64,000 bases of DNA from Actinomycetota bacterium (GTDB lineage: Bacteria; Actinomycetota; Actinomycetes; Nanopelagicales; Nanopelagicaceae): the NCBI GenBank assembly GCA_026392845.1, contig JAPLBJ010000017.1, positions 1 through 64,000 of the forward strand. Direction: 5' to 3'. Numbering within the stretch: position 1 is the first letter of the stretch; the number at the start of each line of letters is the position of its first letter. A program made the translations under genes and the position numbers. Below are positions 6,836 to 13,315 of this stretch, one piece after another. The notes under the pieces are model-generated. The model was not told the DNA's origin. It saw only the letters and a list, made by a program, of their open reading frames with translations, and ran no database searches.

Positions 6836-8251
6836 TTGGAATCGAAAATGCAAAAAATGAAAACCCACGCTAACCATGCGCAAACGTTTAGATCAGTACC
6901 CGCAACATCCGAGCCGTTATCAGTAACAAAAATACAGGCCCTGTTAGATCAAGAATGGGCGCGCTTTAAAGAAAACACTTCAGCCTCTGAAAAAGAGAGT
7001 GCTCTCGCGCTTCGAACAATGCCCATGGGTGTTCCTTCCAGCTTTCAACATTGGGATCCATATCCAATCTCAATCGTTTCAGCACAAGGTGCGTGGATGA
7101 CAGATGTTGATGGACGTCGCTTACTCGACCTATCAATGGGCTTTGGAGCAATGCTCGCTGGCCACCTAAACCCAGTTGTTGTGGCCGAAATTGAGGCATC
7201 TCTGAAAGAGGGAATGCTCTTCGTTACACCATCTCCAATTTCTCGCGATGCAGGCGAACGTATCTGTAAGCGTTTTTCTATTGACCAAGTTCGTTTTGCA
7301 AACTCTGGTACGGAAGCCACAATGTATGCAACTCGTCTTGCTCGCGCATATTCTGGAAAGAATGGCGTCGTAAAGATTGAGGGCGGATACCACGGATCAT
7401 TCGACCCACTTATGGTCTCTGCAAAGCCAGCACTCGATGAAGCCGGCGATGCGCAATCACCTAATGCTATTGCTTACATCGGAACAGTTCCTGGTGATGT
7501 CTATGTTGTTCCTTACAACAATCTTGTTGCTTTAGAGACAGTATTTGAAGAGCATGCAAAAGATATTGCCTGCTTTATTCTCGAACCTGTCCTAGAAAAT
7601 ATTGCAATTGTTCTCCCAGATGCTGGATACCTTGAGGGCGTTCGCGCACTCTGCGATCACTACGACATCATTCTTATATTTGATGAAGTAAAAACAGGAC
7701 TTACTGCTGGACCACAAGGTGCAGCGCAACGTCTTGGTGTTCAACCAGATCTGATCACACTTGCTAAATCAATTGGCGGTGGAGTTCCACTTGCAGCTTT
7801 TGGTGGCAAGAAGAAGTACATGGATGCAGTAGCCGATGGCCGTCTTGCACACTTCGGTACTTTCAACGGCAATCCACTAGCAATGGCTGGTGTACGTGCA
7901 GTTGATAAAATCTGTACAGATGAGGCACTTGCACATGCAGAAGCTCTAAACATGCAGGCACTTGAACGTATTACGCAAATTATTGAGCACTACCAATTAC
8001 CAGCACACACTGTTGGTTTTGGCGTAAAAGGTTGCATAACATGGTCAACGCTGCCCGTGCGCAACTACCGCGATTACAAAGCAACTAATTTCAAAATCGC
8101 AGAGCTCTCATGGCTCTGGTCCCTCAATCGTGGAGTAATTACGCCTCCAGGACTCGATGAACAATGGTTGATCTCTTTGGCGCACGGCCAAGAAGAGATT
8201 GATATTTTGGTAGAAGATTTCCGCAGTCTTGCGGAAGCGCTACGTAGCTAA
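6836..8251 (+). CDS. class-III aminotransferase, glutamate-1-semialdehyde aminomutase-like
   Basis: ORF with TTG start (ATG alternatives at 6848 and 6857); GTEATMYATRLARAYSG, IFDEVKTG, TLAKSIGGGVPLAAFGG. Confidence 0.85.
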   Translation: MESKMQKMKTHANHAQTFRSVPATSEPLSVTKIQALLDQEWARFKENTSASEKESALALRTMPMGVPSSFQHWDPYPISIVSAQGAWMTDVDGRRLLDLSMGFGAMLAGHLNPVVVAEIEASLKEGMLFVTPSPISRDAGERICKRFSIDQVRFANSGTEATMYATRLARAYSGKNGVVKIEGGYHGSFDPLMVSAKPALDEAGDAQSPNAIAYIGTVPGDVYVVPYNNLVALETVFEEHAKDIACFILEPVLENIAIVLPDAGYLEGVRALCDHYDIILIFDEVKTGLTAGPQGAAQRLGVQPDLITLAKSIGGGVPLAAFGGKKKYMDAVADGRLAHFGTFNGNPLAMAGVRAVDKICTDEALAHAEALNMQALERITQIIEHYQLPAHTVGFGVKGCITWSTLPVRNYRDYKATNFKIAELSWLWSLNRGVITPPGLDEQWLISLAHGQEEIDILVEDFRSLAEALRS

Positions 8252-8284
8252 CCAAATAACGTTTTTCGAAATCCATAAAAATCT

Positions 8285-9358
8285 TTAGGGAATTAGCGAA
8301 ACCTTAATTGATTCGTTTCCCGCCGAAACCATATCTAGTCCTTTTTGGAAATCTGCCAAAGGAAGTTGATGAGTACAGATTTTATCCAAGGGTAATTTCC
8401 CTGATTCAATCATGGCAATTGCGGCTGGCCAGCAATGTGGACCAAGATGAGCACCAAGAAGATCGAGTTCTTTATCATCGCTGATAATGCTCCAGTCGAC
8501 AGTGACATCTTCTTTGAAAACACTGTACAAAACAAAGGTTCCAAGTTTGCGCAAGATTTGTAGTCCTTGTGCCACGGCGCTTGGGTGGCCAGTGCCCTCT
8601 AAGTAGATATCTGCGCCATATCCTTCGGTCAATTCTCTAACTATCTCAATCGCATTTTCGCGACCGATATTGATAGTAAGAGTTGCGCCGCATTCTTTTG
8701 CAACTGCTAATTTACGATCATCTAGGTCTAAAGCAATGAGAATTGCAGGTTTCTTCACAGCAGCGCCAGCAATCATTCCAAGACCGATGGGACCACACCC
8801 AGCAACAACAACTACATCTGTATTCTTAATCTTTGCGCGTTCAACAGCGTGAAGTGCGCACGACAATGGTTCTGCATATGCAGCATGCGCTGGTTTTACA
8901 CTTTTAGAAATTTTGTGAACGCGAGAATGCGTAGAAAAAATCATGTACGAAGCCATTGCACCAGGAGTTTTTCTTTTGAATCCAAAAATCCCGTGAGGTG
9001 CGCACATCCAATATTCACCACGTTTGCAGTAACGACACTCTTCGCAAGGAACAATCTGTTCTGCGACAACTCGGTCCCCAACTACTACTCCCCAACGCTT
9101 GCTTGCTTCTTCATCAATTTGTGCAATCTCGCCAACGAATTCATGTCCTGGAATTACTTCAGTTTCAGCATATGCAGGTCTATTGGCATCTCCCCAAAAC
9201 TTTGATGCACCGTGATAACACTTCAAATCGCTAGCGCAGATACCCACTGCTTCTACTCTTACAAGTGCTTCACCTTTAGTTGGCGTAGGTATTTCAACAT
9301 CCTCTAACTTGTAATCCATCGGACCATGACATACGACTGCCTTCATTGTTGGGCTCAT
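8285..9358 (-). CDS. eltD: zinc-dependent alcohol dehydrogenase, erythritol/L-threitol dehydrogenase-like
   Basis: MDR family: GHEFVGEIA, Cys-rich structural Zn loop CEECRYCKRGEYWMC; closely resembles what I recall of the M. smegmatis erythritol/L-threitol dehydrogenase; clustered with TIM-, RpiB- and DhaK-type genes. Confidence 0.75.
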   Translation of the reverse strand: MSPTMKAVVCHGPMDYKLEDVEIPTPTKGEALVRVEAVGICASDLKCYHGASKFWGDANRPAYAETEVIPGHEFVGEIAQIDEEASKRWGVVVGDRVVAEQIVPCEECRYCKRGEYWMCAPHGIFGFKRKTPGAMASYMIFSTHSRVHKISKSVKPAHAAYAEPLSCALHAVERAKIKNTDVVVVAGCGPIGLGMIAGAAVKKPAILIALDLDDRKLAVAKECGATLTINIGRENAIEIVRELTEGYGADIYLEGTGHPSAVAQGLQILRKLGTFVLYSVFKEDVTVDWSIISDDKELDLLGAHLGPHCWPAAIAMIESGKLPLDKICTHQLPLADFQKGLDMVSAGNESIKVSLIP

Positions 9359-9377
9359 GCGAGATCCTCTTTCTTTT

Positions 9378-10142
9378 TCATAGGTGTGCTGCTTTGATTG
9401 AAATACATTCTTGAACTATTGAAATATAAGTTTGAGGGTTATGAGATCTGCGACCCAGGAATAATCCATCACATGTTTGAGAGATCATTTCAAAGAGACC
9501 TTCACCCGCACTTCCCCCATAAAGTATCTGAAAATCTTCGATTTTCATATCCTCTAATTCGGTACGGATAAGTGAGCACATTTTATTGATATGTTCTGCA
9601 GAGGCTGGATGTTCAACCCCAATCGCCCATGTTGGCTCATATGCAATAACTAACTTCTTTAGATTCTTTTGGTCTTTGACCGCGCTTCTGATCTGGGTTT
9701 TTACCTCTGCCTGCGCTGACTTTTCTTCAGTGCTGAGCTCGCCTATGCAGACAATGGGGATGAGATTATTTCGAGCACTTGCTGCAATCTTGTGAGAAAT
9801 TACATCGTTACTTTCGCCAAAAAGTGTTCTTCTTTCGTGATGACCAATGAGTGCGTACTCGCAGCCCATTTGAGCTAGCAATTGAGGGCTGTTCTCACCA
9901 GTAAAAGCACCAGAATCATGCTCGCTTACATTTTGCGCTCCGATTGCAAGTTGAGAGCTAGATGTTTTTTCTACACATTGTGAAATCAATGGCGTCGCTG
10001 GAAGTAGAAAAAGTTCAACATCATCTTTATTGATACTGCCTAAGCCAGTAACTGCTGCCTCTAACCATGAAAGCGTTTGATCTCTATCCATATACATCTT
10101 GAGATTTACGCCTACCAATAGTTTGCTTGCACGACTTCCCAT
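9378..10142 (-). CDS. lerI: triosephosphate isomerase homologue, probable L-erythrulose-1-phosphate isomerase
   Basis: TIM-family motifs in altered form (GVNLKMY, IGHHERR, AYEPTWAIG, YGGSAGEG); context with RpiB and DhaK homologues. Confidence 0.7.
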   Translation of the reverse strand: MGSRASKLLVGVNLKMYMDRDQTLSWLEAAVTGLGSINKDDVELFLLPATPLISQCVEKTSSSQLAIGAQNVSEHDSGAFTGENSPQLLAQMGCEYALIGHHERRTLFGESNDVISHKIAASARNNLIPIVCIGELSTEEKSAQAEVKTQIRSAVKDQKNLKKLVIAYEPTWAIGVEHPASAEHINKMCSLIRTELEDMKIEDFQILYGGSAGEGLFEMISQTCDGLFLGRRSHNPQTYISIVQECISIKAAHL

Positions 10143-10610
10143 CTATTGATCTTTATTTTCAAATTCAGTAATAAGTGCAACTTTTTGTGCCGATGCTGAA
10201 CTTTCATCAAAATGATATGTGAGCCATTCTTTTGCTAATCGTGATGCCAATTCAATACCAATAACACGTTGACCGAAAGTAAGGACTTGTGCATTATTAC
10301 TAAGAACAAGTCTTTCTACTGAATAACTATCGTGAGCTGTTGCTGCGCGTATTCCTTTTACTTTATTGGCAGAAATTGCGACTCCAAGACCGGTGCCACA
10401 AATCAACAATGCTCTATCAGCTTTCCCATCGGCAATCATCTGCGCTGCAGCAATAGCAACATCTGGATAAGGGGTTTTACTTGATGCATCAACCCCAACA
10501 TCTACTACCGATTCAACATTAGCGTCACTTTGTAATTGCTTTTTTAATATCTCTTTATATTGAAAGCCTGCATCGTCACTTCCGATTACTACGCGAAATT
10601 TCTCGGTCAT
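10143..10610 (-). CDS. derI: RpiB/LacB-family isomerase, probable D-erythrulose-4-phosphate isomerase
   Basis: [32 protein letters not shown]; likely start is M10 of the 10143..10637 ORF, just after the upstream stop. Confidence 0.7.
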
Positions 10611-10611
10611 A

Positions 10612-12330
10612 TCATTTTCCTTCCAAAAAATTAGCAATTGTAGAAATAATCATTGCTAGTGACGTTGCGCCTGGATCTTGATGGCCCAAACTTTTTTCCG
10701 CATGCGGGCGCGCGCGGCCGATTTTAGGAAGAAGATTTGCAGTCTCTGCGGCGGCACCTGTTGCCACATTGCTTGCACTGCGCCAGGCTTCTGGAAGTTC
10801 TTTCCCGGCTGCTTTACTTAGTTCTTTTGAGAATGGGATAAGTACATCTACAAGCGTCTTATCGCCAATCTGCGCTTTTCCAAATTTAGTGACTTCCGCA
10901 GATGCTCTAGCAATCGCACTGGCTACTACTTGCGCTGATGGTTTTACAGAATCACCAAATTCTTTACCAATTTCTCGAAGAATAATTCCCCAGATAATTC
11001 CTGAGGTTCCTCCTGCTTTATCAGACCAAGAATCTGCTGCCGCTTCAAGGGTGGATCCAGCACCTGCGCCAGCAGCTACAACTTCTTTTCCTGCAGTTGC
11101 TGCTGCGTGTGCCCCGCGTGCCATACCGATTCCATGATCACCATCGCCTGCATAGGAATCTAATAGTCCATATTCATCTGCTCGCTGGGCTGTATTCGTT
11201 TCGATGAGTTGCAAAATTTTCGCAATATTTTTAGCGCACTCGTGTGATTCGGAACTTCCTTTAGAAATTACTTTCTTCTCTTCTCGTGAAGAATTCACTT
11301 GAGATGAAGCAGAACTTAGAGAGATAGTGCCTTTTTTATACCCTGGTGTATACGTTGGCTTCTTCCAAAATCCTTCTTGCTCCTCATTGAGCCATGTAAA
11401 AGTAAGTGATGCCCCCGCCATTTCAAAGCTAGTAACAAGCTCACCGATTTCTGGTTCGACGATTTCAATATTCTTTTCTTTTAGCAGCGCAAAAATATTA
11501 TTATAGAGAACATAGAGTTCCTCATACTTCACGCCACCTAGACCATTAACCAATACGCAAAGACGAGTCTTTGAGTCATTGCGACAGGAATCAGGAGTTT
11601 CATCCAATAAGTGAGTAACAAGTTCTAGAGCTAATTCTTTTGAAGTTGGTATATCACTTTCACTAAGGCCTGGTTCACCATGAATACCTAAGCCAAGTGC
11701 CATTCGTCCCTTTGGAACCGTAAATAGCGGTTCCGTTTTGCCTGGCAAAGTACAACCAGAGAATGCAACACCAATAGTGCGAGTGCGCTCATTTGCTTCA
11801 ACGGCAACTCTATAAACCTCATCGAGTGAATAACCTGCCTCAGCAGCGGCGGCGGCAACTTTGAATACAAATAGATCGCCAGCAATTCCTCGGCGCTTAT
11901 GAAATTCCTCTTTACTCGCGCTCATAATGTCATCTGTTACAAGGACAGTTTTGCACGGGATGCCTTCGTCATTGAGTTGTGATTGCGCCAAATTAAAATT
12001 CATGACATCGCCAGCATAATTTCCATAACTCAATAAAACTCCGCCGCCTGCTTCCGCAGCTTTACAGACAGTGTGTACGCGCTGTGTCGATGGTGAAGAA
12101 AAAACATTTCCGACAACTGCGCCATGGGCTAAACCTGGGCCCACAATTCCAGCAAATGCTGGGTAATGTCCCGAGCCACCACCAATAACAACAGCAACAT
12201 GACCTTTTGTTTTCTCTTGATTTCTAACAACGCCACCTTGCACTCGTCTTACTAGATGAGAGTGTGCAGCTACGAATCCTTCTGTGGCTTCATCAACAAA
12301 ATCCTCGGGATCATTTAGTACGTATGGCAA
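10612..12330 (-). CDS. fused DhaK-DhaL dihydroxyacetone/erythrulose kinase
   Basis: DhaK region ([27 protein letters not shown]) and DhaL region ([25 protein letters not shown]) in one 572 aa ORF. Confidence 0.85.
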
Positions 12331-12438
12331 TGTGTAACCAATCTATTCATCTGCGGCCAAGAGCAAGGTTGAAGTATTCCAGATAGCCAGTAAAGTTACC
12401 AGAGTAAAATATTGCTTATATGGAAGTTGAGGCTCACT

Positions 12439-13194
12439 ATGACTGTTGATATGAACTTTTCACTCACCAACAAGATTGCTCTTGTCACAGGTGGTGCCTC
12501 TGGTATCGGAAAATCTATTTGCGAAAATTTTGCTAAAAAGGGCGTCACGGTAGCTGTCGTTGATATGAATATTGCCTCTGCTCAAAAGGTTGCAGCTGAT
12601 ATTGGGAATGGAGCAACTGCACACGTTTGCAACGTAACTGATATCGCCTCAATTGATAAGGCAGTTGCGGAAGTTATCTCAGCACATGGACGTATCGATA
12701 TTTTGGTCAATAGCGCAGGTATGGCTGCATTAGATCCCGCGGAGAGTGTAAAAGCATCAGACTGGAACACAACAATTGCAGTCAACCTAAGCGGTACCTT
12801 CTTTGTTTCTCAAAGTGTGGGACGAGAAATGTTGAAAGTCGGTAAAGGAAAAATTATTAACTTAGCCTCTCAAGCAGCAAGTGTTGCGCTAACAGATCAC
12901 GTTGCTTATTGTGCTTCCAAATTTGGAGTTCTCGGTGTAACAAAGGTTTTGGCATCTGAATGGGGCGGGCGCGGAATTAATGTGAATTCAGTCTCTCCAA
13001 CTGTTGTACTTACAGAATTAGGCAAGAAAGCATGGGCTGGCGAAAAAGGTGACGCTCATAAAGCACAGATTCCAGTTGGCCGATTTGCTGAACCTGAAGA
13101 AGTTGCAGCTGCCGTTATCTTCCTTGCATCCGATGGTGCTGACATGATTAATGGCGCTGACTTAGTTGTCGATGGTGGATACACAATCAGATAA
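12439..13194 (+). CDS. short-chain dehydrogenase, D-threitol dehydrogenase-like
   Basis: TGGASGIGK cofactor motif, YCASK catalytic motif, FLASDGADMINGADLVVDGGYT; divergent from the kinase operon. ORF opens at 12412; internal ATG 12439 chosen. Confidence 0.75.
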   Translation: MTVDMNFSLTNKIALVTGGASGIGKSICENFAKKGVTVAVVDMNIASAQKVAADIGNGATAHVCNVTDIASIDKAVAEVISAHGRIDILVNSAGMAALDPAESVKASDWNTTIAVNLSGTFFVSQSVGREMLKVGKGKIINLASQAASVALTDHVAYCASKFGVLGVTKVLASEWGGRGINVNSVSPTVVLTELGKKAWAGEKGDAHKAQIPVGRFAEPEEVAAAVIFLASDGADMINGADLVVDGGYTIR

Positions 13195-13242
13195 TTAAAG
13201 AAGAAAAGCCCCCGGTGTGAAAGGCACCGAAGGCTTAACTCG

Positions 13243-13315
13243 TGCGCGCGAAGGGATTCGAACCCCTAACCTTCTGATCCGTAGTCAGATGCTCTATCCG
13301 TTGAGCTACGCGCGC
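13243..13315 (-). tRNA. tRNA-Arg(ACG)
   Basis: Cloverleaf: acceptor GCGCGCG/CGCGCGC, anticodon loop CTACGGA, T-loop TTCGAAT. Confidence 0.95.

Follow-up and report, generated by a model that had tools for sequence, protein, structure and literature searches.

Positions 8285-13194 of the window, which is the whole stretch of 64,000 nucleotides analysed here, hold genes for a Zn-dependent dehydrogenase (Zn-ADH), a TIM homologue, an RpiB homologue, a fused DhaK-DhaL kinase and an SDR, and this combination raises the question of whether the locus duplicates housekeeping sugar metabolism or encodes a catabolic route of its own. Enzymes of these types constitute the pathway for D-threitol, L-threitol and erythritol in Mycobacterium smegmatis (EltD, DthD, LerK/DerK, LerI and DerI; Huang et al. 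2015, as relayed in PMC10733421 and PMC12780249). The best reading of our results is that this known tetritol pathway is present in a new lineage: the five genes very probably constitute a tetritol/erythrulose catabolic cluster, EltD-LerK-LerI-DerI(+DthD), leading to D-erythrose-4-phosphate, for which we infer the substrates and their stereochemistry. The host is a small-genomed actinobacterium, probably of freshwater origin, and its genome (G000) comprises 1.36 Mb in 73 contigs at 94.5% completeness. Its size and base composition, together with its relatives, point to a probable member of the Nanopelagicales (acI).

Organisation of the cluster

An earlier note had described four genes lying nearly end to end with an SDR gene diverging from them, and all five open reading frames were found where it had placed them, intact and with conserved active-site residues (Table 1). 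The kinase, RpiB, TIM and Zn-ADH genes form, in this order, a tightly packed minus-strand operon (12330-8285), with the SDR gene diverging from 12439. The kinase end at 10612 overlaps the RpiB start, which is ATG 10613 and not the TTG upstream of it; the RpiB and TIM genes abut at 10143/10142, and the gap from TIM to Zn-ADH is 19 bp. For the SDR, ATG 12439 is a more likely start than TTG 12412 and gives 251 aa, the length seen in its orthologues. The five proteins carry the Pfam domains Dak1+Dak2, LacAB_rpiB, TIM, ADH_N+ADH_zinc_N and adh_short_C2. This grouping is not a product of chance, because the four-gene operon recurs with its order unchanged in six other genomes of the order. No transporter or regulator adjoins the cluster, as had been noted before.

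Table 1. Features of the cluster, with predicted functions
Feature	Position	Strand	Remark
Zn-dependent dehydrogenase, EltD-type (predicted erythritol/L-threitol dehydrogenase)	8285..9358	-	last operon gene
TIM-barrel isomerase, actinobacterial LerI-type (predicted L-erythrulose-1-P isomerase)	9378..10142	-	TPI cut-offs missed; tree; residues
RpiB-fold isomerase, probably DerI-type (predicted D-erythrulose-4-P isomerase)	10143..10613	-	Cys active-site type
Fused DhaK-DhaL kinase, LerK-type (predicted erythrulose kinase)	10612..12330	-	first operon gene, TTG start
Divergent regulatory region (putative)	12331..12438	.	contains shared element AAGTATTYCAGAT at 12372-12384
SDR dehydrogenase, GolD/DthD family (predicted D-threitol dehydrogenase type)	12439..13194	+	NF005309 match

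The cluster isomerases are second copies

Both isomerases of the cluster are second copies within the genome. The search for a separate canonical tpiA near gap/pgk, proposed in the earlier note, located this gene directly after pgk on another contig (C17), and another RpiB is encoded on contig C16. The products of these genes are 33% and 32% identical to the cluster TIM and RpiB, respectively. The possibility that the genome has a single TIM, placed with the housekeeping TpiA, is clearly dismissed by this separate tpiA and by a branch with 100/98 support between the two; a housekeeping TPI/Rpi identity was rejected on the separate canonical genes and the TIM tree. A search of the genome for DhaK proteins found none besides the cluster kinase.

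The TIM homologue falls in an actinobacterial LerI-type clade

In a tree of 57 TIM sequences, the canonical TPIs lie on one side of the 100/98 branch and the cluster TIM on the other, in a LerI-type clade of 33 TIMs that are all actinobacterial except for a copy on a Klebsiella plasmid. A contig profile search with a generic TIM pattern, which returned mostly ordinary TPI among the matches listed, supplied outgroups and three LerI-type loci (L047-L049). The L-erythrulose-1-phosphate isomerase structure 11ef and a Shinella TIM form a third lineage, a clade of their own with 100/97 support. An identity with EryH, the proteobacterial L-erythrulose-1-P isomerase, was rejected because the tree sets the 11ef/Shinella clade apart from the actinobacterial group.

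The window TIM scores below the cut-off of all TPI family models and keeps the catalytic residues Lys15, His101 and Glu169. Its loop 6 reads GVEHPA, the canonical GTGK being replaced by GxxxPA. In all canonical enzymes compared, loop 6 starts with GTG. Nearly every member of the LerI-type clade has GxxxPA instead, and 11ef has GENGIPA, with the replacement at the same place as in the window TIM. Within the LerI-type clade, GHSERR becomes GH[AHFY]ERR and YGGSV becomes YGGSA. The motifs named previously (GVNLKMY, GHHERR and YGGSAGEG in the TIM, DDAG in the RpiB) were all found in the sequences. Their interpretation as expected if substrates had changed stands in part: the altered TIM motifs exist and would fit a change of substrate, yet they are not special to this genome, being nearly clade-wide. 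The apparently atypical TIM motifs are signatures of the actinobacterial LerI-type clade. Annotation by family name lumps LerI-type enzymes with TpiA, and loop 6 GxxxPA, YGGSAxxGL and GH[AHFY]ERR are markers that separate the two.

The erythritol pathway of Brucella and rhizobia (EryABCD, EryH and EryI) first phosphorylates erythritol itself and ends with TIM-type and RpiB-type isomerases that yield D-erythrose-4-phosphate. Loop 6 is also replaced in the EryH-type TIM, but this enzyme belongs to a separate lineage with GHSERR and YGGSVN.

A further observation is that, when the window is compared with L036, L037 and L038-L041, sequence identity falls off much more steeply for the TIM than for the other operon proteins: TIM identities are 87% versus 92-99% for the partners in G148, 60% versus 88-95% in G054, and about 44-45% versus 64-82% in G028, G088 and G043.

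Family placement of the RpiB, the kinase and the dehydrogenases

The cluster RpiB is 63-71% identical to the RpiB of mycobacterial EltD operons. Against the DerI model NF051858, a rhizobial model, it scored 152.9 bits (cut-off 240), and the housekeeping RpiB gave no match. TIGR02133 was dropped as evidence for DerI because the housekeeping RpiB passes it too. The change from DHAG to DDAG pointed out in the earlier note is present, but it marks the DerI-type group rather than this genome: DDAG is the commonest form in DerI-type RpiBs, with DEAG, DSAG, DKAG, DAAG and DNAG as variants.

The kinase keeps the GIHGE and DGDHG motifs. In a kinase tree it clusters with TIM-linked kinases (97/95); a distinct clade (100/100) is made up of the kinases from mycobacterial EltD-type loci. 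Whether it acts on L- or D-erythrulose had been left open, and the question is narrowed by this placement together with the reported action of LerK, alongside EltD, on the erythruloses derived from both L-threitol and erythritol (PMC10733421).

In 69/396 Mycobacterium genomes, a genus tentatively assigned to the compared genomes from their MspA porins, there is an enzyme with 64-72% identity to the Zn-ADH; the counterparts in six related genomes reach 80-98%. Its identity to proteins annotated as erythritol/L-threitol dehydrogenase is ~47-49%; the next groups reach about 50%, and Tdh ~33%. The SDR passes the GolD/DthD model NF005309 (367.9 bits, cut-off 286) and is 59-62% identical to orthologues in five Mycobacterium genomes. 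Close orthologues of both dehydrogenases in mycobacterial EltD/DthD-type clusters support the earlier inference that these are EltD/DthD-type enzymes.

Distribution and neighbourhood in relatives

A second TIM, called at an E value of at most 5.5e-60 with the next matches from 1.5e-40, occurs in 7 of 199 sampled genomes of the order, and all seven have the kinase-RpiB-TIM-ZnADH order of the window. The SDR gene diverges from the kinase gene in four of these (G000, G148, G054 and G028). In three of the six sampled relatives (G088, G043 and G149), an ABC transporter with a ribose-type (RbsB-type) substrate-binding protein replaces it directly upstream of the kinase; the window genome has none there. 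The element AAGTATTYCAGAT occurs in each of the four genomes whose SDR diverges, whereas no copy was found in the three loci linked to a transporter, and it has no second match within the window; it is a candidate operator or promoter part.

No transporter orthologous to that of the relatives was assigned among six PF13407 places in the window's own genome, four of which were examined and comprise one XylF-like protein and three LacI-type regulators. ABC parts near PF13407 matches are at most 39% identical to the transporter parts of the relatives. Uptake would presumably rely on a transporter encoded elsewhere.

Across Actinomycetes, the TIM profile marks a LerI-type enzyme in 17 of 396 sampled genomes, of which 15 belong to other orders; ordinary TPIs close to the threshold are left out of this count. 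Kinase, RpiB and TIM genes form an uninterrupted block in at least 13 further actinobacterial loci among those examined, one of them on an annotated Arthrobacter plasmid. Of 20 sampled mycobacterial Zn-ADH loci, 17 have a DhaK-DhaL kinase downstream, accompanied in 16 by an RpiB, while the 20 kb read at each locus contained no TIM; in the loci read in detail, open reading frames resembling a substrate-binding protein and ABC components lie between, as judged by eye. All five Mycobacterium genomes with a LerI-type TIM also carry orthologues of the Zn-ADH and the SDR, the latter ~4 kb from the RpiB end of the EltD-type cluster in two of them. In several other Actinomycetes, kinase-RpiB-TIM is present without an EltD-type ADH, so the block could serve another erythrulose source; this counts against the tetritol reading, as do the missed DerI cut-off and the lack of an adjoining transporter or regulator.

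The cluster appears to share its enzyme types with the M. smegmatis pathway, the link running via the orthologues in mycobacterial EltD-type clusters that also hold a kinase and an RpiB; it differs in having a single kinase in the genome, a TIM inside the operon, the Zn-ADH directly after that TIM, and no ABC transporter beside it. An operon on the Arthrobacter plasmid NZ_CP084551.1, whose TIM is named a triose-phosphate isomerase family protein, is alike in kinase-RpiB-TIM order, TIM clade and TIM motifs, but unlike the window it has a ribose-type ABC transporter, a DeoR regulator and different Zn-ADHs (28% identical).

Proposed pathway and alternative explanations

In the proposed pathway, the EltD-type Zn-ADH would convert erythritol to D-erythrulose and L-threitol to L-erythrulose, and the DthD-type SDR would convert D-threitol to D-erythrulose. 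The single DhaK-DhaL kinase, presumed to use both enantiomers, would form L-erythrulose-1-P from L-erythrulose and D-erythrulose-4-P from D-erythrulose. The TIM-like LerI would then turn L-erythrulose-1-P into D-erythrulose-4-P, from which the RpiB-like DerI would produce D-erythrose-4-P for the pentose phosphate pathway. No transaldolase (PF00923) match was obtained in the 94.5% complete genome; D-erythrose-4-P would therefore enter central metabolism via transketolase or aromatic synthesis, unless the gene lies in the unassembled part. That the cluster encodes a tetritol route to D-erythrose-4-phosphate, as the earlier note had put forward, is supported by the TIM tree, the separate tpiA and the mycobacterial orthologues.

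With EltD, LerK, LerI and DerI on one plasmid, an E. coli tktAB mutant is reported to grow on erythritol and L-threitol; EltD acting with LerK converts L-threitol to L-erythrulose-1-P and erythritol to D-erythrulose-4-P (PMC10733421). Given these products, LerI is required on the L-erythrulose branch alone, in keeping with the mycobacterial loci that have kinase and RpiB without a TIM. The presence of a TIM in the cluster therefore suggests use of L-erythrulose (L-threitol). With what appear to be all four enzyme types, the window operon should handle both branches, to which the SDR would add D-threitol.

The same erythrulose-phosphate chemistry could serve a different nutrient, either L-erythrulose in free form or some other polyol or short sugar that the two dehydrogenases would convert to an erythrulose. 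Promiscuity is common among polyol dehydrogenases, the kinase-RpiB-TIM block elsewhere in Actinomycetes adjoins other dehydrogenases and a ribose-like transporter, and no adjoining transporter fixes the substrate here. We nevertheless consider this unlikely, as the two dehydrogenases fall specifically into the EltD and DthD/GolD groups, and orthologues of each occur around a single mycobacterial cluster.

A dihydroxyacetone/glycerol utilisation set, consisting of a DHA kinase, a second triosephosphate isomerase and a ribose-5-P isomerase, is what the Pfam-level protein names and the sole DhaK of the genome would suggest. It is highly improbable: the TIM reaches none of the TPI cut-offs and branches apart from the canonical TPIs, DHA use would gain nothing from an RpiB and a TIM of its own, and canonical tpiA and another RpiB exist elsewhere in the genome. 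Patchy occurrence (seven of 199 genomes) and the fast divergence of the TIM might instead indicate decaying or mis-assembled accessory genes without present function, but five intact reading frames with conserved active-site residues, arranged identically in three genomes of the genus, leave this idea scarcely credible.

The preferred reading, a tetritol/erythrulose catabolic cluster, would add planktonic actinobacteria with small genomes, whose carbon sources are hard to determine by culture, to the hosts of a pathway characterised in Mycobacterium; among the open-access papers searched, none was found that ties Nanopelagicales/acI to erythritol or threitol use. More tentatively, and with appreciable doubt, one kinase might serve both erythrulose enantiomers, allowing a streamlined planktonic actinobacterium to use erythritol and both D- and L-threitol, which would make tetritols an overlooked carbon source in lakes.

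Flanking genes and intergenic elements

A class-III aminotransferase gene (6836-8251; product below the hemL cut-off) flanks the cluster in G000, G148 and G054, and also in G028 at 67% identity; it may be a functional neighbour of the cluster. Only 33 bp separate it from the Zn-ADH gene in the window (8251-8285), which is missing a gene of ~428 aa that occupies this place in G148 and G054. A tRNA-Arg (ACG) gene lies directly downstream of the SDR gene on the minus strand (13242-13315).

In all three transporter-linked loci (L038, L040 and L041), a GC-rich inverted repeat, seen by eye, separates the gene for the ABC substrate-binding protein from that for the kinase and might form a hairpin for mRNA processing or attenuation. 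The neighbours of the operon in G043 (L040, 2689-8123) are a split transketolase, a DeoR/SorC-type regulator, an FGGY kinase that is glycerol-kinase-like but below its cut-off, and a 322-aa protein without an NCBIfam match; together they possibly represent a second sugar pathway.
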